Shown piece after piece: positions 4,588-55,441 of a stretch of 64,000 bases of DNA. Location of the stretch: contig JAHLLD010000006.1 of assembly GCA_020444325.1 (NCBI GenBank), forward strand, positions 62,001 through 126,000. Reading direction: 5' to 3'. Within the stretch, counting starts at the first letter, position 1; each line of letters starts with the position of its first letter. The position numbers and the translations under genes are program-made. Origin of the DNA: a bacterium. Lineage in GTDB: Bacteria; Bacteroidota; Ignavibacteria; SZUA-365. The notes under the pieces are model-generated. The model was not told where the DNA came from. It was given only the letters and a program-made list of their open reading frames with translations, and did not search any database.

Positions 4588-4635
4588 GATTTCCTCCATC
4601 CTCAAAAAAAACGTGGTGAATGCATGTGACTCGAC

Positions 4636-4884
4636 TTATAGGACAGTAATGGGGTCCCATCGCGGACATATCCGCCGAAACGGCAGACCGACGTTTGCAT
4701 ATGAAATAAACACCTGACCCGGCAGGTTTGTGACATGCAGGGATAAGCCCGTACGCGCTGCGTCGAAATACAGGTACACATTCGGAAAATCCCCGGCGAT
4801 GATGCGGGCGATCCGAAGCTGTGGTTGCGCCCAGGCTCCCTGCAGCGCAATAAATAACATGATAATGAATGTCAGACGATACAC
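4636..4884 (-). pseudogene. Short N-terminal fragment of a VWA-family exported protein
   Basis: 82 codons. The preferred start is the GTG at 4884, which has TTGGAG upstream and aligns with the starts of the paralogues. The frame gives a hydrophobic signal peptide (LTFIIMLFIALQGAWAQ), then PQLRIARIIAGDFPNVYLYFDA, the same plan as the first 45 residues of the two full VWA proteins. After that all family similarity stops. A weak sorting-tail-like stretch (PAGSGVYFI) occurs in another frame, too poor to rely on. It may be decayed, or it may be a small exported protein that reused the signal peptide. No VWA domain is left. Confidence 0.55.
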
Positions 4885-5076
4885 GCGTTTCTCCAATCCG
4901 AAGTTCTCTGTCCGCGAAATGCGGTGGACCAATGACCTCGTGTCGTGATCAGGAGAAAGCCTGCACTATGATAGGAATTGGGGAAATCAAAATCAAACCT
5001 CGCGCTCTTGATTCCTGCCGATCGGCGGGAACACGGATATCACAGATCACAACGGATTTACACGGAGACTAATAAA

Positions 5077-5100
5077 AGGCGCCCCGTATTCGGGGCGCCT
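5077..5100 (-). terminator. Rho-independent terminator of the 5123-8092 gene
   Basis: Perfect 10-bp stem (arm AGGCGCCCCG) with loop TATT. On the minus strand it is followed by TTTTATT. It lies 23 bases past the stop codon of the large VWA gene. The rest of the interval 4885-5122 shows no gene. Confidence 0.9.
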
Positions 5101-5122
5101 GGATGAAGATTCGAGTGATGTG

Positions 5123-8092
5123 TTATTTCTTCAGGAATTTTTTCGTGTATACTCCGTCAGGAGTGCGGAGCATGATATGGTACATGCCCTTGGCGCGGCC
5201 GGAAAGATCGAGTGTGGTCTTAATGCGTTGGCCGGAGCCGACAGCGTCACGAAGCAGTTCGGTTTTCCCGAGAATATCGACGAGGAACACGCTGCCTGTC
5301 ATGCCTGCAGGCATTTCCAGCGAAAGCGTCACGCGGTCGTCCGCGGGATCGGGGTAGACATGCATGACCGGATCCCCCGGCATACGCGTATCATCGACAC
5401 CCAGCACGGAAATCGTGAGCGGGTCGGAGAGGCTGCTGCAACCATGCTCGTTGGTGATTCGCACCCGGTATGTTCCCGTCGCGACCGCAACATGATACTG
5501 ATTCGTGGCACCGGGGATATTCTGTCCATTGAGCATCCACTGGTACATCGGACCCAGATCCGTCATCAGAACATCACCCGTACGGTTGATCCGGGGCTTG
5601 TCCGGTGCAGGCAGAATCTGCACGAACACTGTGTCCGATCTGCCCTCGCAACCGGCGGCATTTCCTACGGTTACAAAATAGGCGCCGGATCGCATGATGA
5701 GGGCCTTCTGTCCCGTCGCCCCGTTGTTCCAGTTATAGTACGTGAAGCCCGCACCCGCATCAAGTATGAGCGTATCGCCGTCGCACAGCGTCTGCGTACC
5801 GCCGGGCTGCAGCTGCGGATGCGGAATGGGATACACTTCGACATGCACGGTATCCGACTGTCCACTCTGTCCGGAGGGCGTTTTCACCGTGCACCAGTAA
5901 TCACCCGTCGTACTTACGGTAAGCGAACGCTGCTCGTAGCCGGTGGACCATTTATAGGAAGCGTATCCTTCCGGCGCATTGAGGGTGACGGTCTCACCTT
6001 CGCAGAGCAGAAGATCGTCGTCATGGGTGAGCTGGACCGTGAACGGGATATCGAGTGCGGGGAGTGTGACATCACCACCTGCGATGCAGGCGAAGGCGCC
6101 GTTTTCGGTGAACTCCACCTGGATGTTTGCGGTCTTACCGAGCGCGACCGGGTCGTGCTCGAGATACCATTCGATGAACGCTTCCTCATCCGGAGCCAGG
6201 GAACCGGGATTGAGCTGCCTTGTGAGCTGTCGTTCGCTGGCGGAGCCGGTGAGCGTAAAGCCGTCGGGGAGAAGAATGCTCGCGATCATCGACCCGGTTT
6301 GCGCAGCCCCGTTATTCTTTATCCCGGCGCGCACGGTAAACGGCATCGGGGTATATCCCTTCTGGTCGGGACGAATTTCGATTTCGGGGATATCGAGACT
6401 GCATTCGAAGGAGGTCGTTGCAGGAGGCACATAGACCTGCACACAGCAATCGATCGACTTGTGATTGTCCATCATGCCAGTGATGCAGATCATTGTGGAA
6501 TCCCCTGTGGGAATGGGCCTGGCTGCAACCTGCCAGCTCACCTCCGCGTAATTGCCGGGTGCAATATTCGGTGGTGAGGCAGACTGCTCATCCATCAACG
6601 GAGAAACCAGCCGGAGTACTGTCGTATCATACGCGATCTTGAAACGGGCATTCAATGCGTCCGCCTCTCCCGTATTGAAAAAGCGACCGGTTACCGTGAA
6701 AGGATTCGGCACATAGTCCGTGATCAATTCCTCCCATGCCAGCTGGCTGGGCCCATCCATGGTGCACGCGACTTCGGGTACCGCGGGCACGATACACACT
6801 TCGCCGGACGCCACCTTCGGAATGAAGCAGCCCTGTTCGAAATTCGGCTGATAGAAACTGACCTGTGTGCAGGTGGTATCCTGTACCATCACCGTGCCGA
6901 AGGTCAAATTCAAAAGCAATCCGTTCCCGCTGACGGGGATGCGGGCGGCTGTTTGAATATACACGCCCCCTGCGGCGGGACTGACGGTGAAGGGCACGCC
7001 GTGGAGCAGATACCCGACGGGTGCCTCAGCCGCCTTGAACTGCAGTTTTGATTCGTCGAAAAGCACGGTAAAGCGGAAGGGATAGAACATCCTGTCATCG
7101 ATGGGTGTGATGAGCTCAAGTGGAACGTCGACATCCGCGCCTCCTTTCGCATAGGTATCACCCAACTCCATGTACAGATCGGAGAACGTTGTTGAATCCA
7201 TCGGTGCGCGATAGGTCTTGGTCTCCACATCCGTTCCACCGCAGAAATCTTTCAGCTGCAACTCGACCGAACGATAGCCGCCATCCGCGCAGTCGCGTTC
7301 GTACGTGATGACACATTCCTGCATTCCCTGCTGGATGATGGTCATGATTTCCAGGTAGATTGCGGCAAGCTGTCCGGCATTCGGCGTCTGGTAGTAGCGT
7401 CCCCCCGTAAGCAGCGCAATCATTTCCAGTTCCGTCGCATTGATGGAAGTACCCAGTCCAATGGTAAACACGGGGATGCGATTCCGGTTCGCGAGGGAGA
7501 TGATTTCTGCCGGTGTGCGCGTCGAGGAATTGTCGCCACCGTCCGTCATCACAATCACCGCACGACACTGATTGACTCCATTGTTGATAAGCTCGATGAT
7601 ACCGGCGTAGCATCCGTCCCACACCGCGGTGCCCCCTCCGGCCGGGATTCCGTCTACCGCCGAGTACAACAGCGGCTTGAGCGTGGTCATCTGCTGGGCG
7701 ATGTTCACCTGCGTGTTGAACCAGATAACCGTCGCCTCATCGATCATGCCGTCCATCCCATCGACGAAGGCACGTCCCGCGGCCTTCGCCCCGGCATTCC
7801 CGGCGCCGGACATCGAACCGGACGCGTCGAACACCAGCGCCACACTCATTCCGCAACGCACGGAAGGATCCGGACACCACAGCGTGAAATCCTTCACCTC
7901 GATATCATTTTCAAAGATTTTGAAATCCTGCTTCGCCATGTTGTACGCGGGATTGCCATTACATCCCACCGAGAAATACAGCTCAATCGTCGGCCAGTTC
8001 ACCGTCACACGTTTGAAATTCAGGTTGGGCTGTGCGTATGTCACCGACAGCGCAAGCAGGGAAAAAACAACAGTGAGAAGAATGCGTCGCAT
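5123..8092 (-). CDS. Exported VWA-domain protein with T9SS sorting tail
   Basis: 989 aa. The ATG at 8092 is chosen because GGAGG lies just upstream and a signal peptide (RRILLTVVFSLLALSVTYA) follows directly; the longer open frame to 8272 has neither. The VWA domain keeps DASGS, GGGTAVWDG and TDGGDN, so the metal site looks intact. The middle differs from its sister at 1708-4587: two repeats of about 120 residues of CARDB/DUF11 appearance (NPFTVTGRFFNTG, MPFTVRAGIKNNG). Three Ig-like repeats follow (CEGETVTLNAPEGY, CDGDTLILDAGAGF, MYQWMLNGQN). The tail GMYHIMLR...KKFLKK is a T9SS type A signal. The pair share an N-terminal half and have exchanged or diverged C-terminal modules. Function is likely surface binding; the ligand is unknown. 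Confidence 0.88.
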   Translation of the reverse strand: MRRILLTVVFSLLALSVTYAQPNLNFKRVTVNWPTIELYFSVGCNGNPAYNMAKQDFKIFENDIEVKDFTLWCPDPSVRCGMSVALVFDASGSMSGAGNAGAKAAGRAFVDGMDGMIDEATVIWFNTQVNIAQQMTTLKPLLYSAVDGIPAGGGTAVWDGCYAGIIELINNGVNQCRAVIVMTDGGDNSSTRTPAEIISLANRNRIPVFTIGLGTSINATELEMIALLTGGRYYQTPNAGQLAAIYLEIMTIIQQGMQECVITYERDCADGGYRSVELQLKDFCGGTDVETKTYRAPMDSTTFSDLYMELGDTYAKGGADVDVPLELITPIDDRMFYPFRFTVLFDESKLQFKAAEAPVGYLLHGVPFTVSPAAGGVYIQTAARIPVSGNGLLLNLTFGTVMVQDTTCTQVSFYQPNFEQGCFIPKVASGEVCIVPAVPEVACTMDGPSQLAWEELITDYVPNPFTVTGRFFNTGEADALNARFKIAYDTTVLRLVSPLMDEQSASPPNIAPGNYAEVSWQVAARPIPTGDSTMICITGMMDNHKSIDCCVQVYVPPATTSFECSLDIPEIEIRPDQKGYTPMPFTVRAGIKNNGAAQTGSMIASILLPDGFTLTGSASERQLTRQLNPGSLAPDEEAFIEWYLEHDPVALGKTANIQVEFTENGAFACIAGGDVTLPALDIPFTVQLTHDDDLLLCEGETVTLNAPEGYASYKWSTGYEQRSLTVSTTGDYWCTVKTPSGQSGQSDTVHVEVYPIPHPQLQPGGTQTLCDGDTLILDAGAGFTYYNWNNGATGQKALIMRSGAYFVTVGNAAGCEGRSDTVFVQILPAPDKPRINRTGDVLMTDLGPMYQWMLNGQNIPGATNQYHVAVATGTYRVRITNEHGCSSLSDPLTISVLGVDDTRMPGDPVMHVYPDPADDRVTLSLEMPAGMTGSVFLVDILGKTELLRDAVGSGQRIKTTLDLSGRAKGMYHIMLRTPDGVYTKKFLKK

Positions 8093-8460
8093 AGCTACCT
8101 CCATAAAAAATGTACCACCGTGCCTGCAGGTTTTATCTGGCACGGCGCATCCACCCGTTAATAATGCAGTCGTGATAAAACCTGTGTTTGTCCTGTATAC
8201 AATAGATATACAATACAGATCAAAACGTTGAGATTCAAGTGGGGATGGCAGCATGATGACCGCTGGACTCATTTCATCGAGGCGGCGTGTATTTGTTCCG
8301 AAAATTTCGGCTTGCTATGTTGGCGAATCACAATCACAGTCTTATTCCATGTACTGATGGGAAACCAATCCGGCATGACACACGGTGTGTGCGCTTCGTG
8401 AGTCTGCCCGGAGAGCCGGAACACATGGAATATTGAGCAGGCGAACACGATCAAAGGAAC
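8093..8460. other. Divergent intergenic region
   Basis: Separates the minus-strand VWA gene from the plus-strand VKOR fusion, so promoters for both should lie here. An inverted repeat CTGTAT...ATACAG with a 14-base AT-rich spacer sits at 8193-8218, about 100 bases ahead of the VWA start, and could be a regulatory site. I see no convincing -35/-10 pair and no gene. Confidence 0.35.
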
Positions 8461-12575: not shown

Positions 12576-14687
12576 TCAGGTCAGGTTGACAAGAAGTGGA
12601 CTTCTCTCACCCCAGCCGGTGACGAAAGCGCGACGGCGGGCGCGGGTGACGGCGACGTGCAGCAGCGATCGCTCCATGGTTTCGATCTGCGCGCGGGCAG
12701 CGGCGTCTGCAGCAGAATCCATCGCATAGTGCAGAGGCATTGTCGCGGCATCCATACCAGCGACGAAGACGGCCCCGAATTCGAGACCTTTCACACGATG
12801 CATGGTGGCGAGGCGAATGCCGGACACACTGCGGTCGTCATGCATGCTGTTGTCGATGATCTTCACTTGCAGGCCTTTGACTTCAAGCGCACCGCTGTAG
12901 CGGTTGACCTGCTCATTGGTACGGGAGGTGAGACAGATGTTTCTGTCGTCCACCCCTTCCTCGCGCAGCTCGGCGATGCGGGCGCAGATGAAATCCACCT
13001 CTTCCCCGAAGCTCGGGAAATGCTGCACGACAGGAGCGCTGCCGTGGACGAGAGAACGGTAACCATCCAGACTGTCCGCTTCTCCGTCGAGATCGTCAAA
13101 CTGCCTGCCCTCAAGCAATGCCACGGCCCAGCGGCGGGTTTCCTCCGTCGTACGATAGTTGACGCGCAGGCGGCGCGCACGACCACGAATTTCAATACCG
13201 CAGCGACCCAGCACCACGGGCTGACCGTAAATGCGCTGATGCGCGTCACCGACGATGAACATATCATTCGGCTGGGGAGGAACGATAGCGCGCAGCAGGC
13301 GATATGTTTCAACACGCATATCCTGCGCTTCGTCCACCACTACCGCACGATACGGGAGTTCGCTCCCGGCACGTTCGATCAGCCCGCGGCATTCACGCGC
13401 AACGTCCATCGGTTCCATCAGTCCCTTCTCATCCAGCATGCGGCGGTATTCCTCGAAGAGGGGCCAGATTTCCATGCGCTGCCGAAGTGTGAGCGAGGTA
13501 CCGCGTCCCGAGCGCTGCGCACGCAAGTATTCCTGCTGCGTAATGATTCCCTGCTCCTGCACCACCCACTCCCACTCATCCCGCAGGAAGGCTGCGGGGT
13601 AGTCAAGGGGACGACCACCAAGCACCTGCTCCCAGATGGATTTATTCCCCGAATGAAAATGCAATCCAAACTCATACCCGTTGTGCCGTAGCATCACATC
13701 GGCCCAGCGGTCGATGTTGACGACGTCGACGCGCTTCATCTGTTCGTCACTGAGCAGCTGTCTCAGGTTCTCCTGGATATCTGTCGCAAGGTTGCGTGTG
13801 AAGGTGGTGAACAAAATGCGCTGTCCATCCTCCACCACATGTTCGAGCAGCCATTTCACCCGGTGCATCGCAGCGACGGTCTTTCCGGTACCGGCACCGC
13901 CAAGGACGCGGATGGGACCGTTCGCTTGCATTTCCACGACCTTTCGCTGCGTGGGATGCAGGAATACGCGCCAGTGTTCCAGTGGCGCCTGCAGCATTTC
14001 ATCCAGCTCCGCGTCATCAGAAAGCAGCCGGAAACGCCGCTGCGAATCGGGATGCGCGAGCGCCGAGGCATAGTCCTCAGCATCAATCTTCGCCTGACGC
14101 GCCGTCTCGAGTTCCGCCCACGCTTCCTCCACACTGCAGCCCGCTGCGAGAAGAAGCAATGCCTCCGCCGCTTCCTCGGGGAAGATGGATTCGAGTTCAT
14201 CGAAATGCGCTTCGTCCTTCACAATGCGCACCAGGGGAAGGAAGGGCTCGGGGATGCCGAGACGAAGGAGGTCTTTGTCCTTCACATGCGCAAACAGGAC
14301 CTCCTCCCTTTCATCACCGTCACCATTCTCCGCCAGTCGTCCTTCAAGTATCACTTCGTCATACAGCTGCAGTGCGCCGATGGCGGGATTGAGATGCATG
14401 CGCTTGCTGCGTCCCCAGTCGTAGGCATCGTCATGATGATCGACCCAGAGGAGGATGAACACATTGCCTTTCGGTTCCTTGAAGACGATGCCACGGTAAT
14501 CCCTGTCGATGCGAACGGAGCGGAGATTCTCATCGACACTGTCGAATTTCTCAAGGTTGATTCCCGTGGAATCGGGATTGGACTGAAATTTTTTGATGAA
14601 ATCTTCCGTCTTCTTCTGTTGCGCTTTCGGAAGCCTGCTGTAGGAGGAGAAGAAATCCTTCCCCACTGCCAGTTTTACTTCATGCAT
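12576..14687 (-). CDS. UvrD-type helicase with RelE/ParE-like N-terminal domain
   Basis: 703 aa. Residues 1-95 look like a RelE/ParE toxin fold: SVRIDRDYRGIVF and VFILLWVDHHDDAYDW are its typical strands. A linker of about 160 residues follows, then an SF1 UvrD/Rep helicase core. This has Walker A GGAGTGKT at 263-270, DEAQD at 452-456, NYRTTEETR, TMHRVKGLEF and the end motif VAVTRAR. The start has AGAGGG upstream. It follows the 2111-aa helicase gene by 15 bases, so the two form one unit. Whether the RelE-like part cuts RNA or is only a binding domain is not visible. The 1A/2A core seems complete; no nuclease domain is evident. Confidence 0.88.
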   Translation of the reverse strand: MHEVKLAVGKDFFSSYSRLPKAQQKKTEDFIKKFQSNPDSTGINLEKFDSVDENLRSVRIDRDYRGIVFKEPKGNVFILLWVDHHDDAYDWGRSKRMHLNPAIGALQLYDEVILEGRLAENGDGDEREEVLFAHVKDKDLLRLGIPEPFLPLVRIVKDEAHFDELESIFPEEAAEALLLLAAGCSVEEAWAELETARQAKIDAEDYASALAHPDSQRRFRLLSDDAELDEMLQAPLEHWRVFLHPTQRKVVEMQANGPIRVLGGAGTGKTVAAMHRVKWLLEHVVEDGQRILFTTFTRNLATDIQENLRQLLSDEQMKRVDVVNIDRWADVMLRHNGYEFGLHFHSGNKSIWEQVLGGRPLDYPAAFLRDEWEWVVQEQGIITQQEYLRAQRSGRGTSLTLRQRMEIWPLFEEYRRMLDEKGLMEPMDVARECRGLIERAGSELPYRAVVVDEAQDMRVETYRLLRAIVPPQPNDMFIVGDAHQRIYGQPVVLGRCGIEIRGRARRLRVNYRTTEETRRWAVALLEGRQFDDLDGEADSLDGYRSLVHGSAPVVQHFPSFGEEVDFICARIAELREEGVDDRNICLTSRTNEQVNRYSGALEVKGLQVKIIDNSMHDDRSVSGIRLATMHRVKGLEFGAVFVAGMDAATMPLHYAMDSAADAAARAQIETMERSLLHVAVTRARRRAFVTGWGERSPLLVNLT

Positions 14688-14702
14688 GTGTTATCCCTCT
14701 CT

Positions 14703-17700
14703 TCATTTCGTTTCTTTCAGGTGTTCTTTCCAGATTGCCGCGGTCAGGGATTTCCACCCGGAAGACGCGTACTGCTTCGCTGCCGCATCGTCGGCAACAA
14801 GAGCGACGAGTGCGTCAGGCCACGCGGCGATGGACTGCGCGACGACTTTGCCGTCGGACGCCAACTCATGCATCAACACGCCCACGCCGAGTCCGGAGGC
14901 TTCGAGTCCGCGTACGGCCTGCGCTTCTTCTTCGGTCAGAATTTCCTCAGGCGGGATTTCCCACTCGGCGTCCGGCATGGACTCTTCAGGTATGACATCA
15001 GACAGCCACTCCTCCTTCGCATCCTTCATGCCACTGTCGGCAATCATGGCGAAGTTCGGGAGGAATTGCCACAGGTTGACCGCGTGCAGCATACTGTTCC
15101 ACATTTGCCTGTAAGGCGGATCATCACTGTAGTCAGGAGCATCTCCGAAGCGCAGAAGCAGCTGCAGCTTCTCGTAATCGCCGGACTGCGTCGCCTGCAT
15201 GGGTATGCTGCGCGAAATGACACCGGCACGGTGTCCGAGAAGTGGAATGTCCATTTCGGAAAAGAGTACATCTCCTGAGGGCAAAACGGCAGGAACGGTC
15301 AAGGTGTCGGTGCTCTCCGCAAGCCAGAGTTCCTTCCTGCGCAATTGCACACCGGGAGCACTCCGGAAATCCCTGCCCTTGATACCTGCCAACGCGAATC
15401 GCAGCATGTACGCGCGGTAATCGGCCTCGGTCCCGCTGGCCAGGAATTCGAGAAGCATGACGAGGGAATTTTTATTCTCGCTGCCCCTCAACTTCGTCTG
15501 CGCCTCGGGCACGGAAGACTGGCCGAGGAGACGCCCCAACATGTCATCCTCCGTTGTGAGGAAGGGACACGCGGGCGTCTCTTCCTGCTTTTCGTAGCGC
15601 TCAAGATCGTCCCAGGTGATGGACCATACATGATAGCGTCCCGAACGCAGCAGGGCCATGCGCTGATTGAGGTCGGTACCGACGCGTCCGGGACCGTTGG
15701 ACTTCATTGCGTGATACTCGAATCCATCGGTAAACACGACGACCGGCTTGATCGGTGCATTTTCGTCGAGCGGATAAATGACGAAATCCGCACGAGAAGG
15801 AATGGCCACCTGCTCAGCTGCCCCGAGGGACTGCTGGAACACCAGCCCATACTCCCGTGTGCCGATGCGCATGCGGTAGCCATCCATGCCGTGAATGAAT
15901 CGGCGCGTTCTGCTCACGGGCTTGCCTGCGGGACGAGCGGCAAAAAGCATGTTGACGAAGTAGCGTTCCAGCTCGCTCTCCAGCAGGGGAAATACGCTGA
16001 TCTCATCAATACTCTTGACCTCGTGCAGCGATTCCCAGGCACCGAGAATGCTCTCAAGAATATCCTCAGCCGCTTCGCGGGAAATGTCTGCCATATGATA
16101 GCTCAGGCGATAGGCGTACAGGCAGCTGTAACAGCCGTCCTTTCCCTCCTTCCGGCAGCTGCATTCGCGCAGATGATTGAGTGCGCGTGTGAATACATCA
16201 CGAAGGACGTCCGTGTTCTGCAGCAGTTCCTTCAGGTAGCCGGTGCCGCCCGGGACCACGTCATAAAGGACGAGGTACTTCTTCATCACCGCCGTCTGTG
16301 GCATGGGCTCCTGCATGACCGTGGTCTGCAGATGATCGATGTTGCCCTGGAATCTGCTGCGCAGTCCGAGTAGCAGCGCGGCGACGAAAGAGTGTTCGAG
16401 TTTGCTCGAAGCAAGCAGCGAAGTGGCGGGCAGCAACATGCGTATCGCTTCGGTGGAGAACTCGCGGTACAGGTACAGCATTTCCGCGAACTTCGACGCA
16501 TCGTCTTTGTCCCTGTACCTGCAGCTGCGCGTATGCTTGCGACGGTTGCGCTCATTCTGCACGCGTCCGCACTCGCGGCAAACGAGGAAACCCGGACGCG
16601 CGACCTCACGTCCCGCGATGCGCACATGCTCCCCTTCCTGGTTCTCCTCGCCAAAATTGATGTCCACGAATCGTGCGCTGCCAACGTACTCGAAGCCGAA
16701 GGGCACTTCCTCGTTTTCAATTGCCCAGGCGCTCGAGATGGATGCCGGGTCGGGCTGCACAAGCGTATCGCGTTCGTAAAACGTGGGCGAACGATCATCA
16801 TGCTCATCCCACGAACGGCTTTCACGATCTGACGTTGTGGCGAGCACCTGCCGCAGCCGTAGCAGACGGCGTTTTTGCTTCGCGTCTTTCCAGCCATGCG
16901 TGCCGCAGTGGGGACACCCACCCGTTGCGTTTCCCTGCTCTTCGCGCTCTGCGTAGGTGCAGGCGGGACAAAAACGCCAATCCTCAGGCTCCGAAAGCCG
17001 CAGGTTCACCTGGTCCACCACAACACGCCGTCCCCCGGCATAGAAACTGCTGCTCGGAGCCAGTTCCTTGATCGCGGCGGCGGCGGGACGCTCATACTCG
17101 TAATGCCAGGTGCTCATTTTCTGTCCCTCAACGCTCCCGCTCATCGCGTGCCGGTAAATCACCGAACGCAGCATGATGCCGGCTTCCGGAAAAGCATAGT
17201 TCGGAAGAAAACCTTCGTCTGTAAGGAACTCGAGTATGTGCTTGGATCGAATATCCTTGAGAATTGCCAGCAGACCCTGCTTCTCCGTCAGCAGTTCATG
17301 CATGAGTACATCCCGCTGCTCCCCTGCGGCGGGATCGTCGGCCAGTTCCTTGAGTTGTTTCTCGAGTCCCTTCACCCTGTTATCCATGTCCCGCACTTCC
17401 TTCTGCTGCAGGTGCAGACTGTGCTCGATACGATAGCGCATGTCCCCTAACTCCGCACCGTCACCATATACATAGCGCCGCAGGTACTGCTCGGTGGACG
17501 AGTCGAGTTCACGCGCAAACATGGCGCGGAAATCTGCAAACAGCATGTCACGCTTTTCCTCAGCGAAGTGGAAAAACGACCACGGGAAGCGTGCTTCGTC
17601 TTTTTTGTTGAGCGAAGTGAGAACGGGTCCAAGCGTCGAGGGTATGTCATGCTCATCGGCTCCGTCAAGCACCCAGCGGTCAAAGCAGTACGCGGTGAAC

Positions 17701-20700
17701 TGCCGTTCGAGTACTGCGGGTGCGCCCAGAAAACATCCCGGGGGCTGAATCGCACCTGAAATCATCGCATCGGGTTCGGCGAAGAAATACTGATCATGCG
17801 GTTTGGCCGCAGCCACGGTGATATTGAGCGCATTGCCGTCACGTCTGCCCGCGCGTCCTATTCGCTGCACGTAACTCGATTGCGAGGGAGGGACCGAACA
17901 GAGAACAACGGTGGAAAGGTCACCGATATCCACGCCCATTTCCAGCGTTGGCGTACAGCTCAGGAGGTTGGGATCCCAGGGTTTCGTGCCCTGCATGAAG
18001 CGCTCTTCCACCAGCTTGCGTTCCCCGCTTTCCAGCAGTCCGGTATGTTCGCGCGACACCAGCCGGCGCACGTCGCCTTCGCCATATAGCGATGCGTAGT
18101 ACCCGCCGCCACGATGATCTTCCGCATAGCGTCCGCGGCAGGAATAGCGCATGCAGGGACTCTCTATCCACGTATCCCGCTGCGCATCAGGAACAGATTG
18201 TGCGTGTCCGCAGCTCGCGCAGCGCAGCTGCAGTACTCCGGTCCCGACCCGAAACGCGGTGGGTTGCAGCGCCCAGGCGTTTCCGCCTTTTGTATCGAAG
18301 GGAAGCAGAAGCTCGTATTTCTCCAGCAATGCGACCGTATCGCGCAGCATGTCGGGGAGCCAGGATTCGAAGAGTTCGTCCGTTCCTGCAAAGCATTTGA
18401 TCGCCCAGTCCTCATACCAGCTCTTGCGTCCCGTGCGCGCGACGAGCACATCAAAGCGGTCATTTTTCCCATCGATGAGAAAAGCGGGGGCGCGGCTTGA
18501 AGGACCGAAGTTCGGCAGATGATGTGCGTCGTTGAGCAGCCAGGTGTTCCCACCCTGGGAGATATAGTGCGCGAGATCCTGCTGATACAGCGCACCCCGA
18601 ATCTTCATCTGCGTCAGCATGCCGAGCAGGAAACGCACGACGTCTGCGCGTTGCACCTCGCGCAGCACCCCGTATTGTTCTCGAAGCTGCGTGTGCAGGG
18701 TGTCCAGCGTCCTTGTGAGCGCCTCCAGATCAGGCCCGGCAACTGAGGAAGCGCTTTTCTCCAGCGTGCGTCCAATGCGCGACGAAAAACCGTATTCCGC
18801 AAAGATCTCCCACTGAATGCGCTGTTCGATCATGTTCAACAGCGCACTTCCTTCGGGGAGCCTGCCTTCATTGCGATAGTATTCCCAGTCCTCCATCCAC
18901 TCCATATCGGGTGGAATAAAGGTTGCAAGGAATTCGTCCATCGAATGACTCTGCCGCCACGAGCGGATGAACGCGCGGGGAAATTCCTCGAGCGTAAGAG
19001 GACGCTCGAGGGATTGCACGAATTGCTGCAGCGCGGTGCGCATGTTGAAACGATACGTGCGAGCGGTGAAGAAGCCAGCCCGATGTGAAGCGTCCTGCAC
19101 CGAATCCGAAAACGCGAGCAGTTTCTTGTCCTCATTGAACGGCGAGGCGAAAAGCTGCGCGTTGACAACGGATATAAGGCTCGCAGCGCGGGAACCGACA
19201 ATGGTCATGCTGTCAGTACCTTCGCAGTAGGGACAGTCATGCACGCCTATCGTGCGATTGCGCAGCGTGCGCGCCTTTCGCCAGATGAGGACGGGAATGG
19301 GATCCGTATCACTGCCGCAGTTGCGGCACTCCTGCGCAGGCTGTTTGTCCACCGCCAGGCAGTCGGGACACAGGTGCCACTGCTCGTGCCGCAACGCCCG
19401 CGCATTGCTTTCGGGGAAAAGAAAGGCCACGTCGAGCGACTGCGCGAAGTAGCGTGAATAGAACTCCTGCAAGCCCTTTCGCACTTTGCGCTCCACATCC
19501 GGCAGTACCGCACCCCATGCCGTGGCGCCACATTCACGACAGTGCAGCAGCGGCAGCGCCTGGTCGAGATGTTCTTTTGTCAGTTCATCGGAGAGGCGGA
19601 GTTCAGGACGTTCGCCCACGGTGCAGACCAGGCGGCGCAGTTCACGGAACCACAGCTGCTGACGGACGTGCAGCCATGGACCGCCATCGCCATCGCGGGC
19701 GGCGGAGACGCAGGCCGCAAGGCTTTCCACTGCGGCAGCCAAATGTTCAAACTCCGGCACACGTACATCATGCAGTTTCTGCATATCCTCACCTACAGGA
19801 TTATGCAGTTTCTGCATATTTTCTCCGCCGTGAGTATGCAGTTTCTGCATATCCGCGGCAAAGGTGGAGTACAACGCATGCATATCACGCGGCCTGCCGT
19901 CAAGGCGGGAGAGCAGATACTGGAACAACGGGACCTTCCGGAGTTCTTCAGCGAGACGCGTGCGCCAGGACGCATCATCAGAGCGCCATTCCGAACCCGG
20001 TGTTGATGTCCACACCGCTGCCTGGCGCAGCAGATACGCTACCGGCGGCTCATTATCCTGCAGAAGCAAATCCGCCTTTTCCGGTAACTCGGGTGCCGAA
20101 GGAAGCTGCTTCAGCCCGAGAAAGTCCAGCGCAGGGACAGTGGATTCCGTAATCACCGCATCCGTGTCGAACTCTTCACCGAACACGCGGGCGGCATAGT
20201 CCCGCAACGCATCGCTGTTCTGTTCCGAACCCAGCGTGGCGGAAGTACCGACGCAGCAGAGATGCCGTTCTGGCGTTCCGAGGCGTGACTTCATGCGGCG
20301 GAGCAGGCAGGCGAGATCCGTCCCCTGCGCGCCATCGAAGGTATGGAGTTCATCGACGACCAGGAAGCGCAACGTCTCCGGTCCATTGAGTGTCCACAGC
20401 CGTGCGTCCCTGGGACGCAGCAACAGGTAGTCAAGCATCTTGTAATTCGTGAGGAGGATATCGGGCGGATCCCCGCGCAGCACCTCACGATCCGTCACGA
20501 CCGAATCGGGGGTCATCACTCCGACCGGTGTCTCTCCCTGCTGTCCCACATACAGTCCCGCCCGCAAATGCTGGCGAAGTTTGTCATTTCCATGAATGAT
20601 GCGTGCGATACGGCGGGACTGATCCGTCGCCAGCGCATTCATCGGATAGATCAGTATGGCCTTGATGCCGGGCACGCCCTGTCGCCGCATCTGCAGGCAA

Positions 20701-21038
20701 TAATCCAGCACCGGGAAGAGGAAGGACTCCGTTTTCCCTGATCCCGTCCCTGTCGCTATCAGTGTTGACCGCGGATGCAATCCCCCCAGCCTCTCGAACG
20801 CTCTCTGCTGATGTCGGTACGGCGGGAAACCCATGGGGATGTCGGGGAAATACGTGCGCGCATCCCCCTGTTCAAACGGGAGGCGAATGGAGAGGAAGGG
20901 TCCGCGGAAGATTTCCTCGTCGCGATGCACGAAGTCCGAGATCACATGCGCGAAATGCGCCGTGGTCACCGGGAAGGTGGTTTCGAGGAAGTCTCCTATC
21001 CCCTGACGAATCTGCCTGCTGAGAATGGTTGGGAGCAT
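14703..21038 (-). CDS. Giant DEAD-box helicase with DUF1998 region (DruE-like)
   Basis: 2111 aa from the ATG at 21038, where family-like sequence LPTILSRQIRQGIGDFL begins; the frame is open to 21098. SF2 core: GTGSGKT near residue 100, VDELHTFDGAQGTD, TSATLGS, and motif VI QRIGRAGRRDG near 1080. Several zinc-like CxxC pairs lie between and after (CRECG, CPDC, CPYC, CASC, CPAC/CPHC). The DUF1998 block is VVPGGTGYLKELL...CSCRKEGKDGCYSCLYAYR. After it comes a segment SRADFVIYPL...VVFTDGFEYHA...VWSITWDDL resembling a Vsr/PD-(D/E)XK fold. Size and domain order match DruE of Druantia, but no other Druantia gene is here. The partner is the RelE-UvrD gene downstream. DNA-translocating defence is inferred. 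Confidence 0.88.
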   Translation of the reverse strand: MLPTILSRQIRQGIGDFLETTFPVTTAHFAHVISDFVHRDEEIFRGPFLSIRLPFEQGDARTYFPDIPMGFPPYRHQQRAFERLGGLHPRSTLIATGTGSGKTESFLFPVLDYCLQMRRQGVPGIKAILIYPMNALATDQSRRIARIIHGNDKLRQHLRAGLYVGQQGETPVGVMTPDSVVTDREVLRGDPPDILLTNYKMLDYLLLRPRDARLWTLNGPETLRFLVVDELHTFDGAQGTDLACLLRRMKSRLGTPERHLCCVGTSATLGSEQNSDALRDYAARVFGEEFDTDAVITESTVPALDFLGLKQLPSAPELPEKADLLLQDNEPPVAYLLRQAAVWTSTPGSEWRSDDASWRTRLAEELRKVPLFQYLLSRLDGRPRDMHALYSTFAADMQKLHTHGGENMQKLHNPVGEDMQKLHDVRVPEFEHLAAAVESLAACVSAARDGDGGPWLHVRQQLWFRELRRLVCTVGERPELRLSDELTKEHLDQALPLLHCRECGATAWGAVLPDVERKVRKGLQEFYSRYFAQSLDVAFLFPESNARALRHEQWHLCPDCLAVDKQPAQECRNCGSDTDPIPVLIWRKARTLRNRTIGVHDCPYCEGTDSMTIVGSRAASLISVVNAQLFASPFNEDKKLLAFSDSVQDASHRAGFFTARTYRFNMRTALQQFVQSLERPLTLEEFPRAFIRSWRQSHSMDEFLATFIPPDMEWMEDWEYYRNEGRLPEGSALLNMIEQRIQWEIFAEYGFSSRIGRTLEKSASSVAGPDLEALTRTLDTLHTQLREQYGVLREVQRADVVRFLLGMLTQMKIRGALYQQDLAHYISQGGNTWLLNDAHHLPNFGPSSRAPAFLIDGKNDRFDVLVARTGRKSWYEDWAIKCFAGTDELFESWLPDMLRDTVALLEKYELLLPFDTKGGNAWALQPTAFRVGTGVLQLRCASCGHAQSVPDAQRDTWIESPCMRYSCRGRYAEDHRGGGYYASLYGEGDVRRLVSREHTGLLESGERKLVEERFMQGTKPWDPNLLSCTPTLEMGVDIGDLSTVVLCSVPPSQSSYVQRIGRAGRRDGNALNITVAAAKPHDQYFFAEPDAMISGAIQPPGCFLGAPAVLERQFTAYCFDRWVLDGADEHDIPSTLGPVLTSLNKKDEARFPWSFFHFAEEKRDMLFADFRAMFARELDSSTEQYLRRYVYGDGAELGDMRYRIEHSLHLQQKEVRDMDNRVKGLEKQLKELADDPAAGEQRDVLMHELLTEKQGLLAILKDIRSKHILEFLTDEGFLPNYAFPEAGIMLRSVIYRHAMSGSVEGQKMSTWHYEYERPAAAAIKELAPSSSFYAGGRRVVVDQVNLRLSEPEDWRFCPACTYAEREEQGNATGGCPHCGTHGWKDAKQKRRLLRLRQVLATTSDRESRSWDEHDDRSPTFYERDTLVQPDPASISSAWAIENEEVPFGFEYVGSARFVDINFGEENQEGEHVRIAGREVARPGFLVCRECGRVQNERNRRKHTRSCRYRDKDDASKFAEMLYLYREFSTEAIRMLLPATSLLASSKLEHSFVAALLLGLRSRFQGNIDHLQTTVMQEPMPQTAVMKKYLVLYDVVPGGTGYLKELLQNTDVLRDVFTRALNHLRECSCRKEGKDGCYSCLYAYRLSYHMADISREAAEDILESILGAWESLHEVKSIDEISVFPLLESELERYFVNMLFAARPAGKPVSRTRRFIHGMDGYRMRIGTREYGLVFQQSLGAAEQVAIPSRADFVIYPLDENAPIKPVVVFTDGFEYHAMKSNGPGRVGTDLNQRMALLRSGRYHVWSITWDDLERYEKQEETPACPFLTTEDDMLGRLLGQSSVPEAQTKLRGSENKNSLVMLLEFLASGTEADYRAYMLRFALAGIKGRDFRSAPGVQLRRKELWLAESTDTLTVPAVLPSGDVLFSEMDIPLLGHRAGVISRSIPMQATQSGDYEKLQLLLRFGDAPDYSDDPPYRQMWNSMLHAVNLWQFLPNFAMIADSGMKDAKEEWLSDVIPEESMPDAEWEIPPEEILTEEEAQAVRGLEASGLGVGVLMHELASDGKVVAQSIAAWPDALVALVADDAAAKQYASSGWKSLTAAIWKEHLKETK
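19770..19850. repeat. Three 33-bp tandem repeats with palindromic core inside the helicase gene
   Basis: The 15-mer ATGCAGTTTCTGCAT recurs exactly at 19770, 19803 and 19836, a period of 33 bases. The core is self-complementary (arms ATGCAG/CTGCAT). In the protein it encodes three in-frame 11-residue units that begin MQKLH (MQKLHTHGGEN, MQKLHNPVGED, MQKLHDVRVPE), near residues 397-423. Confidence 0.9.
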
Positions 21039-21662: not shown

Positions 21663-21875
21663 ACGAGGGTGACCGTCGAACATCTGCTTCGCGGCGGTGC
21701 TGCCGACGTTACGCAGCAGTTTCGTGACTTCTTCGCCAAGAAGGATGACGGCTTTCGGCCGGGCCAGTTCAAGTTCGATTTTCAAGAATGAAAATATTTA
21801 TCGGCGACAGGAACAGCCCGTTTCTTCCCGATGGTGGCGAACTTCGCCGTTGGGTACGCGCTGATTATTCTGCCA
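21663..21875 (-). pseudogene. Internally deleted copy of the UDG-family gene
   Basis: On the minus strand it translates to AYPTAKFATIGKKRAVPVAD. After a break comes KIELELARPKAVILLGEEVT, followed by KLLRNVGSTAAKQMFDGHPR. Both blocks match the intact gene at 31832-32572 (GAYPTAKFATIGRERDVPVAD; KIELEVARPKAVILLGEEVT). Roughly 80 codons between them are missing, as are both ends. It overlaps the 3' end of the barrel gene at 21865. Confidence 0.85.
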
Positions 21876-22803
21876 GAAAGCCGACCTGGAACACAATGCA
21901 GTTTTGAAAGAAATCGCTGCCATTGTTGTCAAGCGGCAGACGCACCTGTATCCCGGGATAGACATCCCCGAGATCCAAGCTCATTCCAAAGACAAGGTGA
22001 TGGGCCAACCCATCCTTGATTCCAAAATTTTCCGCAGTTATTGCTGCGAGGCCCGAGTAGCCTACCAGAAAAAATAACCGTCCCAGCTGATAGCTGGCTT
22101 GAGCAGTTACGGACAATCCAACTTCAAGATTGCCATGTGCTGTCGGAATGAAAAACTGAGGACCACCACGGAAACGCGCAGTTATCCCCCATTCTGTCGA
22201 AGGTGGTCGATAGTTCACCAGCGCTTGCGCTGTGACATATCGCGCGTCCCCGCTGACGCCAAGGGGGCGAAAAGCCCCATAGCGTTCAATATCCGACCAG
22301 AGCCCGATCATTATCGCATTGAGGTAGCTCAGATACTCCCAGTATCCATCCTGTTCAGCATTGTCCTGTTCTGGTGGAATCATACTTCCGGTCGTGGGGA
22401 GACGTGTTCCTACTTCGAAATAGAATTCACGCTCTTCTGAACCGATTTCAAGGCCGGCGTATATATTCCCCACAAGTGTTTGTGTGTACTCACGTGATTG
22501 CTCAAGTACTGTAGTTTCCCCAGTATACTCCGGGGTCACCTTCCATGTCCCACTTGTATAGACAAAAGGAACTTCACTCACAATTTTCATTCCCTGGTCG
22601 AGCTCGAAGATCATGTCTATAAAATAGGTACCTGACATGAAATTATTCTCGCTACCGGATGGTGCGATCGGCTTGAACCACTCGACGGAAATTTGGTTGT
22701 CATGTCGCGGCTGCATCCATACAGGCTGCGCATCAAGATGCACGGGCAGAACCGCTAACAGCAACGCGACTGTTGCCACCCACGCAAAATCTCGCTTTGT
22801 CAT
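21865..22803 (-). CDS. Predicted outer-membrane barrel protein
   Basis: 312 aa. A signal peptide covers about residues 1-25 (WVATVALLLAVLPVHLDA). The remainder alternates polar and hydrophobic residues with many aromatic strand ends (YWEYLSYLNAIMIGLW, GRLFFLVGYSGLAAITA), as in a transmembrane beta barrel. The last residues QVGFLAE lack the classic terminal F. It is the last gene of a four-gene minus-strand unit; its ATG overlaps the stop of the fibronectin protein gene by four bases. Function is not recognised. It may be a small porin or an anchor for the large exported proteins upstream. Confidence 0.7.
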   Translation of the reverse strand: MTKRDFAWVATVALLLAVLPVHLDAQPVWMQPRHDNQISVEWFKPIAPSGSENNFMSGTYFIDMIFELDQGMKIVSEVPFVYTSGTWKVTPEYTGETTVLEQSREYTQTLVGNIYAGLEIGSEEREFYFEVGTRLPTTGSMIPPEQDNAEQDGYWEYLSYLNAIMIGLWSDIERYGAFRPLGVSGDARYVTAQALVNYRPPSTEWGITARFRGGPQFFIPTAHGNLEVGLSVTAQASYQLGRLFFLVGYSGLAAITAENFGIKDGLAHHLVFGMSLDLGDVYPGIQVRLPLDNNGSDFFQNCIVFQVGFLAE

Positions 22804-25064
22804 TCGAGGTCTCCAGAAGAGTTCGTTGCCTTGATCGGAACCGGGACAATGACCTGTCTGCTCAGTGCAGATTCGGTGCCGCCCTCAGCTGAAACTTTGA
22901 CTGTATACGTATATTCGTGAGCATCCACGAATGAAACATCAATGTATTCACGCTTCGAGGCAGGAACAGAGCGATACTCCGTAAGCCCGCTCCCGTCGGC
23001 ATCCCTGTACAGAACAAACCAGAATTTCTCATCCCGATTTGGTTCGTATTTCCATGTCACTCGCACCGCGTGATGGACGGAGTCATACACAGCTGAGAAC
23101 GCTGTAACACCGCGGCATATCCCGGATGTGTACGGAAATGCAATTGTGTAGGCTGTATCTGAAACATTCCCACTGGAATCGAGAGCGATCAGTTGATATG
23201 AATAGCGCACTCCCTGCGCAACCTGACGATCCGTAAACACTGCCGTGTCCGCTGGCAACTTCGCCAAAAGGACGGGTTCCCGGACCATATCGCTGCTTCT
23301 GTACAGATACTGGCTTGCGACATCCTCCGCTTCACTTGGGAGCCACTCCAATATCACACTGCTATCAGCCACGTCTACATTCGTGAAGATCGCCATTTCC
23401 GGGGAAAGACGATCCGGCAATTGGATCTGAATTGTCCCTGCGGGAGACGAAATATTTCCATGGTAATCAAGCGCAACGATATCATAGTATTTACTGCGGG
23501 TAATAAAACTCAGGTCCAGGGTATCCTTGTAGCACTCCCCGGCTACCAGTTCCGGTGTAAGGGCGGCTTGTTCATGCGTTGGAGCATTCGACCATAGAAT
23601 TCGGTACCCCGCCACGTCAGGCTCCGGGGAACGCGTCCACTGGAGTTCCAGCAGACCTGTGGAATCTATGCTTCCTCTGAAATCGGTGGGGGGCGAAGGT
23701 GGAATGGAATCAGCAACGACGAGTAACGCGGGATCCGAATAGCTGGTGTTGCCGGATGAGTCGCGGGCCGCGATCCTGTAGTACGGTTTCGCGATGTCAG
23801 GATGCAAGTCGATATAGAGCGTATCAGTGCGAGGCAGGTCCTGTTCGGTGATGAGCTGAAATACGGTATCACGGAGCCCACTGCGCTCGATGCTCCACGC
23901 CCGTGCATCCCTAGCAGAGTCAGCTGATGCATCCCACACAATACGGACCGCTCCATCCTCCTGTTTCTCAAGCCGCAATATGGTCGGAGGAACAGGTGGA
24001 GTGCAATCACGTGGACGCAATTCAACGACTGATGCCTCTCCATACATACCGAGCCGCGTCAGACCGCGAATCCGGTAAAAGTATGTCTGCCCGTTTCTGA
24101 GGTTCATGTCCTCGAACTGCAGTTTCGATCCCGGCCCTGTTTCAGTCTCAGGCACAAGCAAAGGACTCATCTCGAGCAGGGCATATGTCGAACCGCTGTC
24201 GTCAGATCTTGCGATCTCGTAGTATGGATACGGGTGATCGGTAGGTTGCACCCAGCTGAACACGCCAGATTGTTCTCCTCCCTCGGCCGCGAGGCCAACT
24301 GGAGCTGGTCCGGGCGAACAGTCATCAATCGTAATCCCGATACTGGCCGTGTCAAGACTTTCCCCGCCAGTTGCTGTGAGTGCCATAACACGATAGAGAT
24401 ACTTCCTTCCCCTCACAACGTGATGGTCTACGAAACGCATACCTACGGCTTCCGCGGTGAGAGGATCAACATTCGCAGCGAGGAGAAGAAATTTGTAATC
24501 CTCAAGGGGGGATCGGTCAACGTCATCGTCTTTCTCTGCCGCTTTCACTTCATTGTACAGTTTCAGTGAATCGTCATAGAGCCTGAGAAACGCGATCGTA
24601 GACCATGAACCGAGTTTAGAAAGTTGTATCGCCCACTGCCTGTAGCTCCACGGCTTGATGGGAACTGCGCTGAGCTTCAGCCAATCGGAGGAAGCTGCTG
24701 CTCGAGCAGGAGAAATATCTTTCCTCTCGAGAAGGTAGCCGCTCACGGATGCGCGTTTCCATAGTTCCAACGTGAGGGGCGCCCATCGGATGACTACAGA
24801 GTCGGATGAACAGGCAGCAAAAATACTCAGGATTGGCAGGGAATCAGGGACAATTCTGTTAGGCGAGCTTTTTGAATTTGCTACGGTTCCCTGTGAGCTT
24901 TCAGGAAATCCGGAGCTCGATGCTGTATCCACAGATAGCATGGTCATGATAACAGCAAAGAAAAACAGCAATCTGTGAGCAGAAAAACACCAGCATTGGT
25001 TCCACTCAGGGCTATCGGAAGGTGTGGCCGAGTATGGACGAACGAGAAGTGCTTTATCCTTCAT
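22800..25064 (-). CDS. Exported fibronectin type III repeat protein
   Basis: 754 aa. The N-terminus is long before its hydrophobic core (HRLLFFFAVIMTMLSVDTA at about 30-48), so it may be an uncleaved or long signal; the true start is uncertain. From about residue 75 the protein is a chain of fibronectin III-like domains, with repeated YYEIARSDDSG, YFYRIRGLTRLG, PYYRIAARDSSGN, YDIVALDYHGN and YSYQLIALDSSGN motifs. No enzyme domain and no T9SS tail are visible. It lies 58 bases after the 1530-aa gene and overlaps the barrel gene. It probably works as a surface or periplasmic scaffold with them. Confidence 0.75.
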   Translation of the reverse strand: MKDKALLVRPYSATPSDSPEWNQCWCFSAHRLLFFFAVIMTMLSVDTASSSGFPESSQGTVANSKSSPNRIVPDSLPILSIFAACSSDSVVIRWAPLTLELWKRASVSGYLLERKDISPARAAASSDWLKLSAVPIKPWSYRQWAIQLSKLGSWSTIAFLRLYDDSLKLYNEVKAAEKDDDVDRSPLEDYKFLLLAANVDPLTAEAVGMRFVDHHVVRGRKYLYRVMALTATGGESLDTASIGITIDDCSPGPAPVGLAAEGGEQSGVFSWVQPTDHPYPYYEIARSDDSGSTYALLEMSPLLVPETETGPGSKLQFEDMNLRNGQTYFYRIRGLTRLGMYGEASVVELRPRDCTPPVPPTILRLEKQEDGAVRIVWDASADSARDARAWSIERSGLRDTVFQLITEQDLPRTDTLYIDLHPDIAKPYYRIAARDSSGNTSYSDPALLVVADSIPPSPPTDFRGSIDSTGLLELQWTRSPEPDVAGYRILWSNAPTHEQAALTPELVAGECYKDTLDLSFITRSKYYDIVALDYHGNISSPAGTIQIQLPDRLSPEMAIFTNVDVADSSVILEWLPSEAEDVASQYLYRSSDMVREPVLLAKLPADTAVFTDRQVAQGVRYSYQLIALDSSGNVSDTAYTIAFPYTSGICRGVTAFSAVYDSVHHAVRVTWKYEPNRDEKFWFVLYRDADGSGLTEYRSVPASKREYIDVSFVDAHEYTYTVKVSAEGGTESALSRQVIVPVPIKATNSSGDLE

Positions 25065-25122
25065 TGCAGTAGCCTATAATTCAGCAGGATGAGTTCGATA
25101 TCTAGAGATGAATACCATGAAT

Positions 25123-28100
25123 TCACTTCGGATTGCACCTGTTGCCAAGCGTGAGATTCAATCCCTGTTTTATCTTGATATGAGGAATCACCGTGCAGTC
25201 AATGTTAATATGTGTCGCTGCCCAGAGCGGCTTCGGTCCGCCAAAGCTGAAAGTCCTTTCCAGGCGCCCCAGACTCAGCCGCTTCGACCCACCGGGAATT
25301 TCCACAGCGCACGTCGTCACTCCACACGGATAAGGGATTCCATACGCATAGCATATCTTGGGACATGGAATGCGAATCCCAGTGTCAAATCCATCCCACT
25401 CCACTTTTAGCCAGGGCGTTACGCTCGATTTCAGCGAGCCATTCATGTACCAGCCATAGAAACCAACGGGCTTGTATCCGCCACACTGCATTCCCTTATA
25501 GTGTAAAAGTTCAGCATCGCAAAAAGCTGCAAAATCCAGGCCAGCACACATCTCAAGGTATGAATATGGAATGCACCTGGAGATCGTCCACTCAAGCTTC
25601 AATCCCGCGTACAGTCCATCCGACCGTCCGCTTCCGAGATCATTTCCCACGAGGAAATACGCCTTGATTCTACCAAAAGGGTCCAACCGGACTTCCGCGC
25701 GCTTCGGCGGTGACCCAAGCTTGAAAAACCATTTCTTTTCTGGTATATCTATTTTCAGTCTGGCTGTGGGATTGTTTGACTCGAGACGTGGAGTTCTTGT
25801 CAGGTTCTGAACCGCCCTACCGAAAATCCCTCCCCCGGATTGCCGAGGTTCAGGAGGGGGGGTGATGAGCTGTAAACGTCCATCGATAATCTGATCATCC
25901 AGGTCGTAGTCGATGCGTAATTTGAGTTTTGCGACGTATTTTTCTCTTTTATCGATCGGTGCGAGCAGATACCCTTGCCCGTTCAGCGAAAGCGTTGACA
26001 TCCCGCCGTGACGGTTGAACTGCGCAATAACGTCCACATCACAATTGAAACGATTCGCACCCGCCTCTGGCATGGGAGCGAATGTGCCCATCATTTTCAA
26101 TCCGAGTGAAGCATCCGCATCCGGCAGATATGTATACCCCGACATGCTCGTTCCTATCGATGTCTTATGTAACTCACCCGATGTCACAGGAAATTTTGGA
26201 TCCTTCCCGGTCCTGGACATATGATACCATGCGCCACCTCCGAGACCGTACCATCCGATGCTCTGTGTAATGGGATAAGGATCTTTGAAAAGCGTACGGG
26301 TGTCGAAAAACCAGTACCGCAGGCGGTCGTTTGCCACGCCCTTCGCTTTCACATTCCCTGCCTGGAAAATCCCATCCACGTGCGAGATGAGTCCGCGTTT
26401 TAACGAAGCCACTGCTGTCCCGCGGAAGCCATGACCGTAGTTATCATCCCCGTGGTAGAAGTGAATCTCTCCGTCCAGGTGCATGTAACTCGAAACATCC
26501 ACATCGATAGATATGTCCTCAACCTGATGTCTCTTGAATTCTGGCTGAGGGACGCCATTTTGCTCCGAGATCTCCCCAAGTGCGGAAAATCCCCCCTCGC
26601 ACGACCACGCAGAGGTCCCATTTGCAAAGGTGTAGCTCAGTGGAAGTGTCAATGAGTATGTCCTGTCTGCGCTTGATGCATTCGTTGGTGATTGGTCTCG
26701 GTTGGAGGAAGATGAGGGCTTTTGAGCTCCACGTTTCCGTATTCGGGGACTCCCCACCACCGCGACCGGGAATCCCGCTACCGTGATCTGATTCGCGTCC
26801 TCCTTCGCATCCACCCACCAGTCTCCAGAAATGAACCGCAGTCCAGTATCGTTCTGTATGATCTCGAAATCCTGAAACCGAAGCCCAGGGATTCTGATCA
26901 AGGGAATACTTGATTCTCCGCTTCGTAAATCCATTGTTCCATGAATCAATAATGTCGCGGAGAAATTTCCAGACGCCTGTTTCCGAAAATTGATGGACGC
27001 ATTTTTCTGTACAGTCATGCGAGCATGCCAAAGTGACGCCGGAATGTCCCTGCTTGTCAACCTCCCTTGATAGGAGGTTTTATGTGAGGCCTTATACAGC
27101 GATTGTAGTGAACAACTATAGGGTATCGGTTCTGTTGATATTGGTACACGTAAGGATCCATTAAACGTGCTTTTGACAACGGAGTTATTTCGAATCTTCA
27201 GATGCGCATCCTCGATCGTCGTCAGCCAGCCTCCAATCTGTGCACCAGTGACTTTCCCTACTACAGCCTCCTGATCGATTTCCGCAGACAATCCGTTTTT
27301 CGAGATGAACAGACCATTTACCGGGATCATTACGCCTTTTCCATTCGGCCTGCGAATCAGCTCATGTGTTGCTTTACAGAATGTCGAGACAAATCCTCTT
27401 CTTCCCGCTTTGCCTCCTGAGGAGGAGATCCAGGATGGATACATGGCGTTCTCGGGATCATTTGTCGACGAAGCATCGAAAACAATCTTATCCGCGGAAA
27501 ATTTCATTCCCGGCAGATCGGTGGCGACAATGTCGCAGGGAAACTCTGCTTTCGCTATCCAATCAGAAAGATTCTCAACTGTCGTCTGAATGCGAGCGGT
27601 GACCCTCGATTGCGCTTTTGCATCGATTTCGCCTGTGGATGAAACTGGAAGCAGCCATGAACGGGGGAAACGTGCATGAATATCTACATGGTACCCCTGA
27701 AGACCATTGCAGTTCAGGACAACAGAATTTTCTTCCTTATTCAAGGTGTATCCGATTGTGCTATTGGAGCTGAACTCCTTCGTCTCAATAAGTGGAGCGG
27801 AGACATTTCCATTGTCAAAGCCATCGGTATGCATGCAGCAGGTTCCTGCGTATACCAGTTTCGCGTCAGCATACGGCAGCCACGTCGAAATATCCTCGAC
27901 ATACGACATACGTAATTCAGCACGAGTGACATCAAAGGTCATTCCTGTGACAGCGATAATATTTCTTTTGCCATAAGTGACATTATCGAAGCCGATGGGG
28001 AATTCTACTTCTTTGCCGTACAACTGGCTCGTCCATCGTGTTGGTGTCGCGCACAGCTCCTGCATTCGCTGGGCGAAATCTGCTGTAGATTCAGTCGAAG

Positions 28101-33788: not shown

Positions 33789-34169
33789 CTACCAGTATCC
33801 CCGCGTTTCATTCTCCATCGCCGCCTGCAAGTCTGCATCATTGTCCACCGTAATATTGAAATGGATCTTCAGCCACCTCGCAGAAAGGGCGTGCAACAAT
33901 ACCGTCATCCGCCTTTCAGGTTCATCAAGGTGCTCCGCGATCATGAAGGATTGCGTACGAAACAGTGTTCTCAAGGGATACACTTTATTCTGCACTCCGG
34001 CTGGATAAGCTGCGTGGAAGAAAGCAAGATCAAACTCCCGACCACCGGATTGACGCGGTGAGAACCGTTGGACCTTTACCGGAGAATACCAGCGTTGGAC
34101 CTCATCGGTGCTGTCCATGATAAACTCCATGGCATACCAGTTTCCAGGAACAATTGTAAACCGCTTCAT
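33789..34169 (-). CDS. Unknown protein in the McrBC unit
   Basis: 126 aa. The ATG at 34169 overlaps the McrC stop (ATGA), which supports it as real and co-translated. No signal peptide, membrane segment or motif is recognised. The sequence is mixed alpha/beta with aromatic residues (GNWYAMEF, VQRWYSPVKVQRF, ARWLKIHFNIT) and a short acidic region. It could be a small specificity or inhibitor subunit. That rests only on its position between mcrC and the nuclease gene. Confidence 0.65.
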   Translation of the reverse strand: MKRFTIVPGNWYAMEFIMDSTDEVQRWYSPVKVQRFSPRQSGGREFDLAFFHAAYPAGVQNKVYPLRTLFRTQSFMIAEHLDEPERRMTVLLHALSARWLKIHFNITVDNDADLQAAMENETRGYW

Positions 34170-42699: not shown

Positions 42700-42706
42700 G
42701 CTAGAA

Positions 42707-55440: not shown

Positions 55441-55441
55441 A

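Follow-up and report, generated by a model that had tools for sequence, protein, structure and literature searches.

The 64,000-nucleotide stretch at positions 62,001 to 126,000 of contig JAHLLD010000006.1 (assembly GCA_020444325.1; Bacteroidota, Ignavibacteria, SZUA-365), hereafter called the window, harbours two adjacent helicase genes that a preliminary description proposed as an undescribed two-gene defence system. From gene content, gene order and motif conservation, we are highly confident that this pair represents armC and armD, the second half of an ARMADA type II anti-phage system that is complete but split in two by a 25.9-kb block. ARMADA type II was published in 2025 (Bell et al., PMC12458937), and the window locus would be a divergent, complete member of it. 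The two genes form part of a known four-gene system, armA and armB lie in the same window, and this identification removes a false new system. What our analysis adds is that the armB-armC junction of such loci often carries other genes.

Identification of the ARMADA type II locus

Bell et al. (PMC12458937) describe ARMADA type II as composed of armA (BrxHII-like helicase), armB (PglX-like methyltransferase), armC (YprA-like helicase) and armD (GajB-like helicase with a RelE-like head). The system of Escherichia coli NCTC 12900 / ATCC 8739 guards E. coli against phages, and its protection is direct and non-abortive. Protection depends, in some cases partially, on the motor or methyltransferase motifs of each of the four proteins, and mutations of ArmA or ArmB abolish or lower it. 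Other type II features given there are a BrxA-like domain after RecA1 and a C-terminal Vsr-type nuclease of ArmC, predicted to be active.

In the window, the four genes are found on the minus strand in the order armA-armB-armC-armD. The first, armA (51747-54614), codes for a BrxHII/DrmD-like SNF2 helicase of 955 residues, although its true start may be at about 54584 rather than 54614. The armB gene (46933-51591) codes for a 1552-residue PglX/DrmMI-like N6-adenine DNA methyltransferase with intact GxG and NPPW motifs. The product of armC (14703-21038; 2111 residues) is a YprA/DruE-like SF2 helicase with an MZB/DUF1998 region and a C-terminal, predicted Vsr/EDxHD-type nuclease, and that of armD (12576-14687; 703 residues) is predicted to consist of a RelE-fold head (approximately residues 1-100), a helical linker and a GajB/UvrD-type SF1 helicase. 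The successive gaps are 155 bp, 25894 bp and 15 bp, and the genes are thus not contiguous. None of the four reading frames is interrupted over ~16 kb of coding sequence, and every catalytic motif is retained.

The pair of the preliminary description is real: both open reading frames (ORFs) are intact, on the minus strand and exactly 15 bp apart, a spacing that makes a shared transcript likely. Because the 25.9-kb block precedes them, armC and armD are probably transcribed from a promoter of their own. The longest armC ORF starts at 21098 and comprises 2131 codons, but homologues align from its residue 21, the Met at 21038, with which residue 1 of E. coli ArmC aligns exactly, supporting the start of the 2111-residue protein. 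Its description as a giant DEAD/DUF1998 helicase was confirmed by the Pfam signatures DEAD, Helicase_C and MZB (MrfA Zn-binding, within the DUF1998 region). Pfam assigned UvrD_N and UvrD_C to ArmD. The best PADLOC models were DruE3 and DruE1 for ArmC (E about 1e-100, best 3e-100) and GajB for ArmD.

Relative to the E. coli proteins, identities amount to 49% for ArmA and 44% for ArmB, both over nearly their full lengths, 37% for ArmC over 2159 columns, also nearly full length, and 45% for ArmD over 703 columns. The eight residues reported as mutated in the E. coli system (ArmA K136 and D236, ArmB G605 and N971, ArmC K110 and D234, ArmD K266 and D454; PMC12458937) are all identical at the aligned window positions, including K145 and D245 of ArmA and the Walker A K269 and Walker B D452 of ArmD. 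In a tree whose references lacked ARMADA I, the window ArmC groups with E. coli ArmC, apart from DruE and DruE3.

Predicted nuclease and RelE-fold modules

ArmC is predicted to end in a Vsr/EDxHD nuclease. All 60 relatives compared share the EDxHD residues E1691, D1751, H1776 and D1789. Structure modelling of ArmC covered its C-terminus, and the best match of this region in a VIA-align comparison was the catalytic nuclease domain of I-Bth0305I (Z 8.5, 97 of 98 residues). Of the helicases studied so far, DruE is the nearest; it loads on 3' single-stranded DNA (ssDNA) and cuts long DNA (PMC13192584).

The AlphaFold2 model of ArmD has a predicted local distance difference test (pLDDT) value of 92.7 and a predicted template modelling (pTM) score of 0.88. 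Its residues 1-97 match the structures of RelE, YoeB, YafQ and HigB (Foldseek probability 1.00; VIA-align Z up to 9.8). The head was missed by Pfam, and a sequence search against solved structures gave only weak matches, the relevant one being the archaeal RelE 1wmi (E 0.37); fold comparison settled the assignment. The preliminary description of a UvrD helicase with a RelE/ParE-like head is thereby supported, for the helicase by Pfam and for the head by the model, as is the presence of two distinct motors alongside an RNase-like fold. In the head, R59, D61, R65, H85, D86, Y89 and W91 are conserved, with R59, R65, H85, Y89 and others at 90% or more; a tentative correspondence with the RelE catalytic residues comes from a rough sequence alignment. 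Such conservation would fit an RNase site that is, or once was, functional.

The armC gene also contains copies of a 15-bp palindrome, ATGCAGAAASTGCAT, repeated with a 33-bp period (in a few cases 32) and separated by variable spacers of ~18 bp. It is found at 19770-19852 of the window and at many other places of the genome (G000). Palindrome dimers gave 41 matches in the window genome and none in 16 relatives, four of which belong to the same genus; a reversed control pattern gave none. One triplet lies in frame within armC; the corresponding gene of a relative of the same genus (G001) appears to lack it.

Conservation of gene order and the armB-armC junction

Scanning contigs for the giant helicase yielded 80 loci in Bacteroidota, Thermodesulfobacteriota, Cyanobacteriota, Bacillota, Pseudomonadota, Acidobacteriota, Myxococcota and other phyla. 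ArmD directly follows ArmC in 59 of the 62 loci with at least 2.3 kb visible. The refuting condition set in the preliminary description thus fails, as the pair is neither confined to the window nor composed of helicases that mostly occur apart; it is found in many phyla, amid defence genes. Three loci (L075, L076 and L105) have armA-armB-armC with no armD in the next 9.7 kb or more. ArmB homologues were present in 46 of the 48 ArmC-carrying genomes searched as a whole. Among near relatives of the window, G001 has the complete set of four genes; a contig break falls within armB, about 12.3 kb lie between this gene and armC, and armD follows armC after 2.2 kb. In G009, of another genus, armA and armB are on one contig and armC on another.

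We measured the gaps at all loci where both neighbouring genes could be placed; two armB positions came from the whole-genome ArmB search, and the 2.2-kb armC-armD gap of G001 lies outside this sample. Gaps above 0.9 kb were found at 25 of 56 armB-armC junctions, at none of 42 armA-armB junctions and at none of 65 armC-armD junctions. After grouping ArmC at 70% identity and retaining the largest gap per group, the corresponding counts were 18/38, 0/27 and 0/47. Fisher tests on these grouped counts (p = 9e-6 and 3e-8) serve as a guide only, because the choice of the largest gap favours the effect, the groups are related by descent and the threshold was set after seeing the data.

The proteins encoded at the junction differ between lineages and match AbiL, Gabija GajA, GmrSD, OLD, Mokosh, DrmD and PDC candidate families, but others match no defence family. 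As the matches were counted without a background rate, we claim no enrichment. In small gaps, the cargo genes are mostly on the armC strand. We consider it about as likely as not that ARMADA II has a recurrent slot between armB and armC, in which lineages independently place different defence systems, mostly on the same strand, ARMADA thus serving as the scaffold of a defence island nested within it. One possible reason would be that cargo at this slot shares the expression of ARMADA and spreads with it. No such slot was found described in the results and conclusions of the ARMADA paper (PMC12458937) or by term searches in it. With extra DNA in 25 of 56 loci, the gap is a specific place to seek unknown defence genes.

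Alternative explanations

A few observations weigh against the ARMADA type II assignment or its predicted modules. The branch joining the ArmC sequences has a Shimodaira-Hasegawa-like approximate likelihood ratio test (SH-aLRT) value of 93, the fork is drawn open and the branches are long. Foldseek gave no match at E below 0.001 for the 474-residue ArmC C-terminus, and no RelE-head mutant was found in the passages of Bell et al. (PMC12458937) covered here. The block parting the two halves of the locus also weakens the case for their coordinated expression. The PADLOC matches of the giant helicase to DruE3 and DruE1 (E about 1e-100) might moreover indicate a Druantia variant that has lost its accessory genes. 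However, PADLOC-DB 2.0 dates from 2023, before ARMADA was named, which is probably why ArmC is labelled DruE. While the window helicase aligns with E. coli ArmC nearly throughout, its identities with E. coli DruE are 29% and 22% over partial stretches, and its C-terminus resembles Vsr/EDxHD nucleases, in contrast to the PLD nucleases found there in Druantia III. A tblastn search of the window with E. coli DruH found nothing. We therefore rejected Druantia membership, which is scarcely credible. The preliminary description was right that the other Druantia genes are lacking, as the absence of DruH from the window shows, but it compared the pair with the wrong family: its real partners are ArmA and ArmB, ~26 kb upstream.

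It is very unlikely that armC and armD form an independent two-gene defence system with armA and armB as a separate neighbour, even though armC and armD are tightly linked (median gap 4 bp, none of 65 gaps above 1 kb) and are often parted from armB, as counted above. ArmB was not seen in 2 of the 48 genomes (G125 and G138), and neither ArmA nor ArmB was seen in two genomes of the window family that carry the pair (G006 and G011). The genomes with the pair but without ArmB are, however, draft assemblies, the G006 pair being on a small contig, whereas all named isolate genomes (NZ_ records) among the 48 have ArmB. The effects of ArmA and ArmB mutations in E. coli (PMC12458937) also argue against two separate systems. 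That the locus is a decaying remnant, whose operon was broken by the block and whose halves are no longer used together, we consider quite unlikely. In its favour, the block is large and consists in part of secreted-type genes outside defence, and the 33-bp-period repeat is inserted in frame inside armC. Against decay, the four frames are intact with their catalytic motifs, and in many lineages such blocks recur at the armB-armC junction while the genes stay intact. Our preferred interpretation remains a complete ARMADA type II system.

Proposed mechanism

In such a system, the ArmB methyltransferase would mark or sense self DNA. The SNF2 motor of ArmA and the YprA motor of ArmC might load on phage replication intermediates that are unmarked or bear ssDNA, and the Vsr/EDxHD nuclease of ArmC would then nick or cut the loaded intermediates. 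The SF1 helicase of ArmD could open or clear DNA ends, its RelE-fold head representing a latent RNase or a docking module.

The intervening block and neighbouring genes

The block between armB and armC (21039-46932) harbours 16 ORFs of at least 120 codons, all on the minus strand, part of them defence genes and part of the secreted type. Starting from the armB side, the former (all minus strand) include an AbiU/AIPR protein (44875-46806; PADLOC AbiU, E 9e-114; Pfam AIPR), a PDC-M11A/B candidate defence pair (42214-44800) whose PDC-M11A protein (42707-44800) has an N-terminal GNAT domain, a ResIII helicase with an HNH nuclease (38104-40716) and a McrBC-like pair (34166-38054), composed of an EVE-AAA McrB-like protein (35514-38054) and McrC (34166-35701). 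G009 encodes relatives of the McrBC-like pair, 65% and about 55% identical, on the downstream side of its armB gene. Proteins of 1530 residues with a TANFOR domain, of 754 residues with an fn3 domain and of 312 residues are encoded at 21865-29715 (minus strand) and are not obviously defence proteins; the TANFOR and fn3 proteins appear to be secreted rather than to act in defence. The block also codes for a ZacA/DUF6361 fragment, a GIY-YIG protein and a UDG-fold protein.

The drop in GC content from 0.59 in armC to 0.40 in the AbiU gene suggests that the block has mixed origins. A 149-bp direct duplication of part of the UDG-fold gene (21664-21812 and 31998-32146, 87% identity) flanks the TANFOR/fn3 group, and this repeated fragment suggests that duplication or insertion at a UDG copy may have given rise to part of the block. 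At the two ends of the block, no direct repeats of at least 10 bp were found.

A Zorya type II operon (54601-57696, minus strand) adjoins armA, with ZorA at 56149-57696 (PADLOC ZorA2, E 2e-122), ZorB at 55442-56152 (ZorB2, 2e-79) and ZorE at 54601-55440 (ZorE, 2e-61). Searching the 48 ARMADA genomes for ZorA gave matches in three, only one of them near ARMADA (G123), and the link between the two systems is therefore not general at this search sensitivity. Zorya was not found upstream of armA in G001 and G009. Also upstream of armA, a HipA_C-domain gene (58040-59158) has a 54% match at a similar position in G009 (L161, 5247-6170). At the other end of the window, the 1708-8272 region encodes two large proteins that combine VWA domains with Por_Secre_tail sorting domains and are likely type IX secretion cargo.

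Comparison with known systems

The window locus shares with the E. coli ARMADA II system its four genes, their order and strand, homology over the full lengths of the proteins and the conserved Walker, NPPW and GxG motifs. It also has the predicted RelE-GajB fusion of ArmD, the predicted Vsr-type C-terminus of ArmC and a nearby Zorya type II operon. The E. coli reference locus is arranged as Zorya II, Druantia III and armA-armB-armC-armD, with arm genes that overlap or nearly touch. There, armB and armC overlap by 1 bp, whereas 25.9 kb separate them in the window, and Druantia III, located between Zorya II and armA in E. coli, has no counterpart at that place. The window lineage is distant, and its family includes a Bacteroidetes metagenome-assembled genome. 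A divergent, complete ARMADA II directly beside Zorya II without Druantia III would be useful for testing which components of the Zorya-Druantia-ARMADA array are required.

Druantia type III (DruH-DruE) resembles the locus by its YprA-family helicase DruE, of similar size and with helicase and MZB regions in common, but the window differs by the lack of DruH, the low, partial identity and the other C-terminal nuclease. With Gabija, it shares the GajB-like, UvrD-type helicase core of ArmD, which differs by its predicted RelE-fold head; no GajA model was among the PADLOC matches of the window proteins scanned. This head, ArmD residues 1-97, has the fold of the RelE/YoeB/YafQ toxin superfamily in our model, but it is fused to a helicase, and no adjoining RelB-like antitoxin gene was identified. 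Other defence genes are also found within the multi-gene operons of BREX, where they code for auxiliary nuclease effectors (PMC12839542). In ARMADA II, by contrast, a single junction, armB-armC, takes nearly all insertions in our sample, and its cargo is broader than nucleases.

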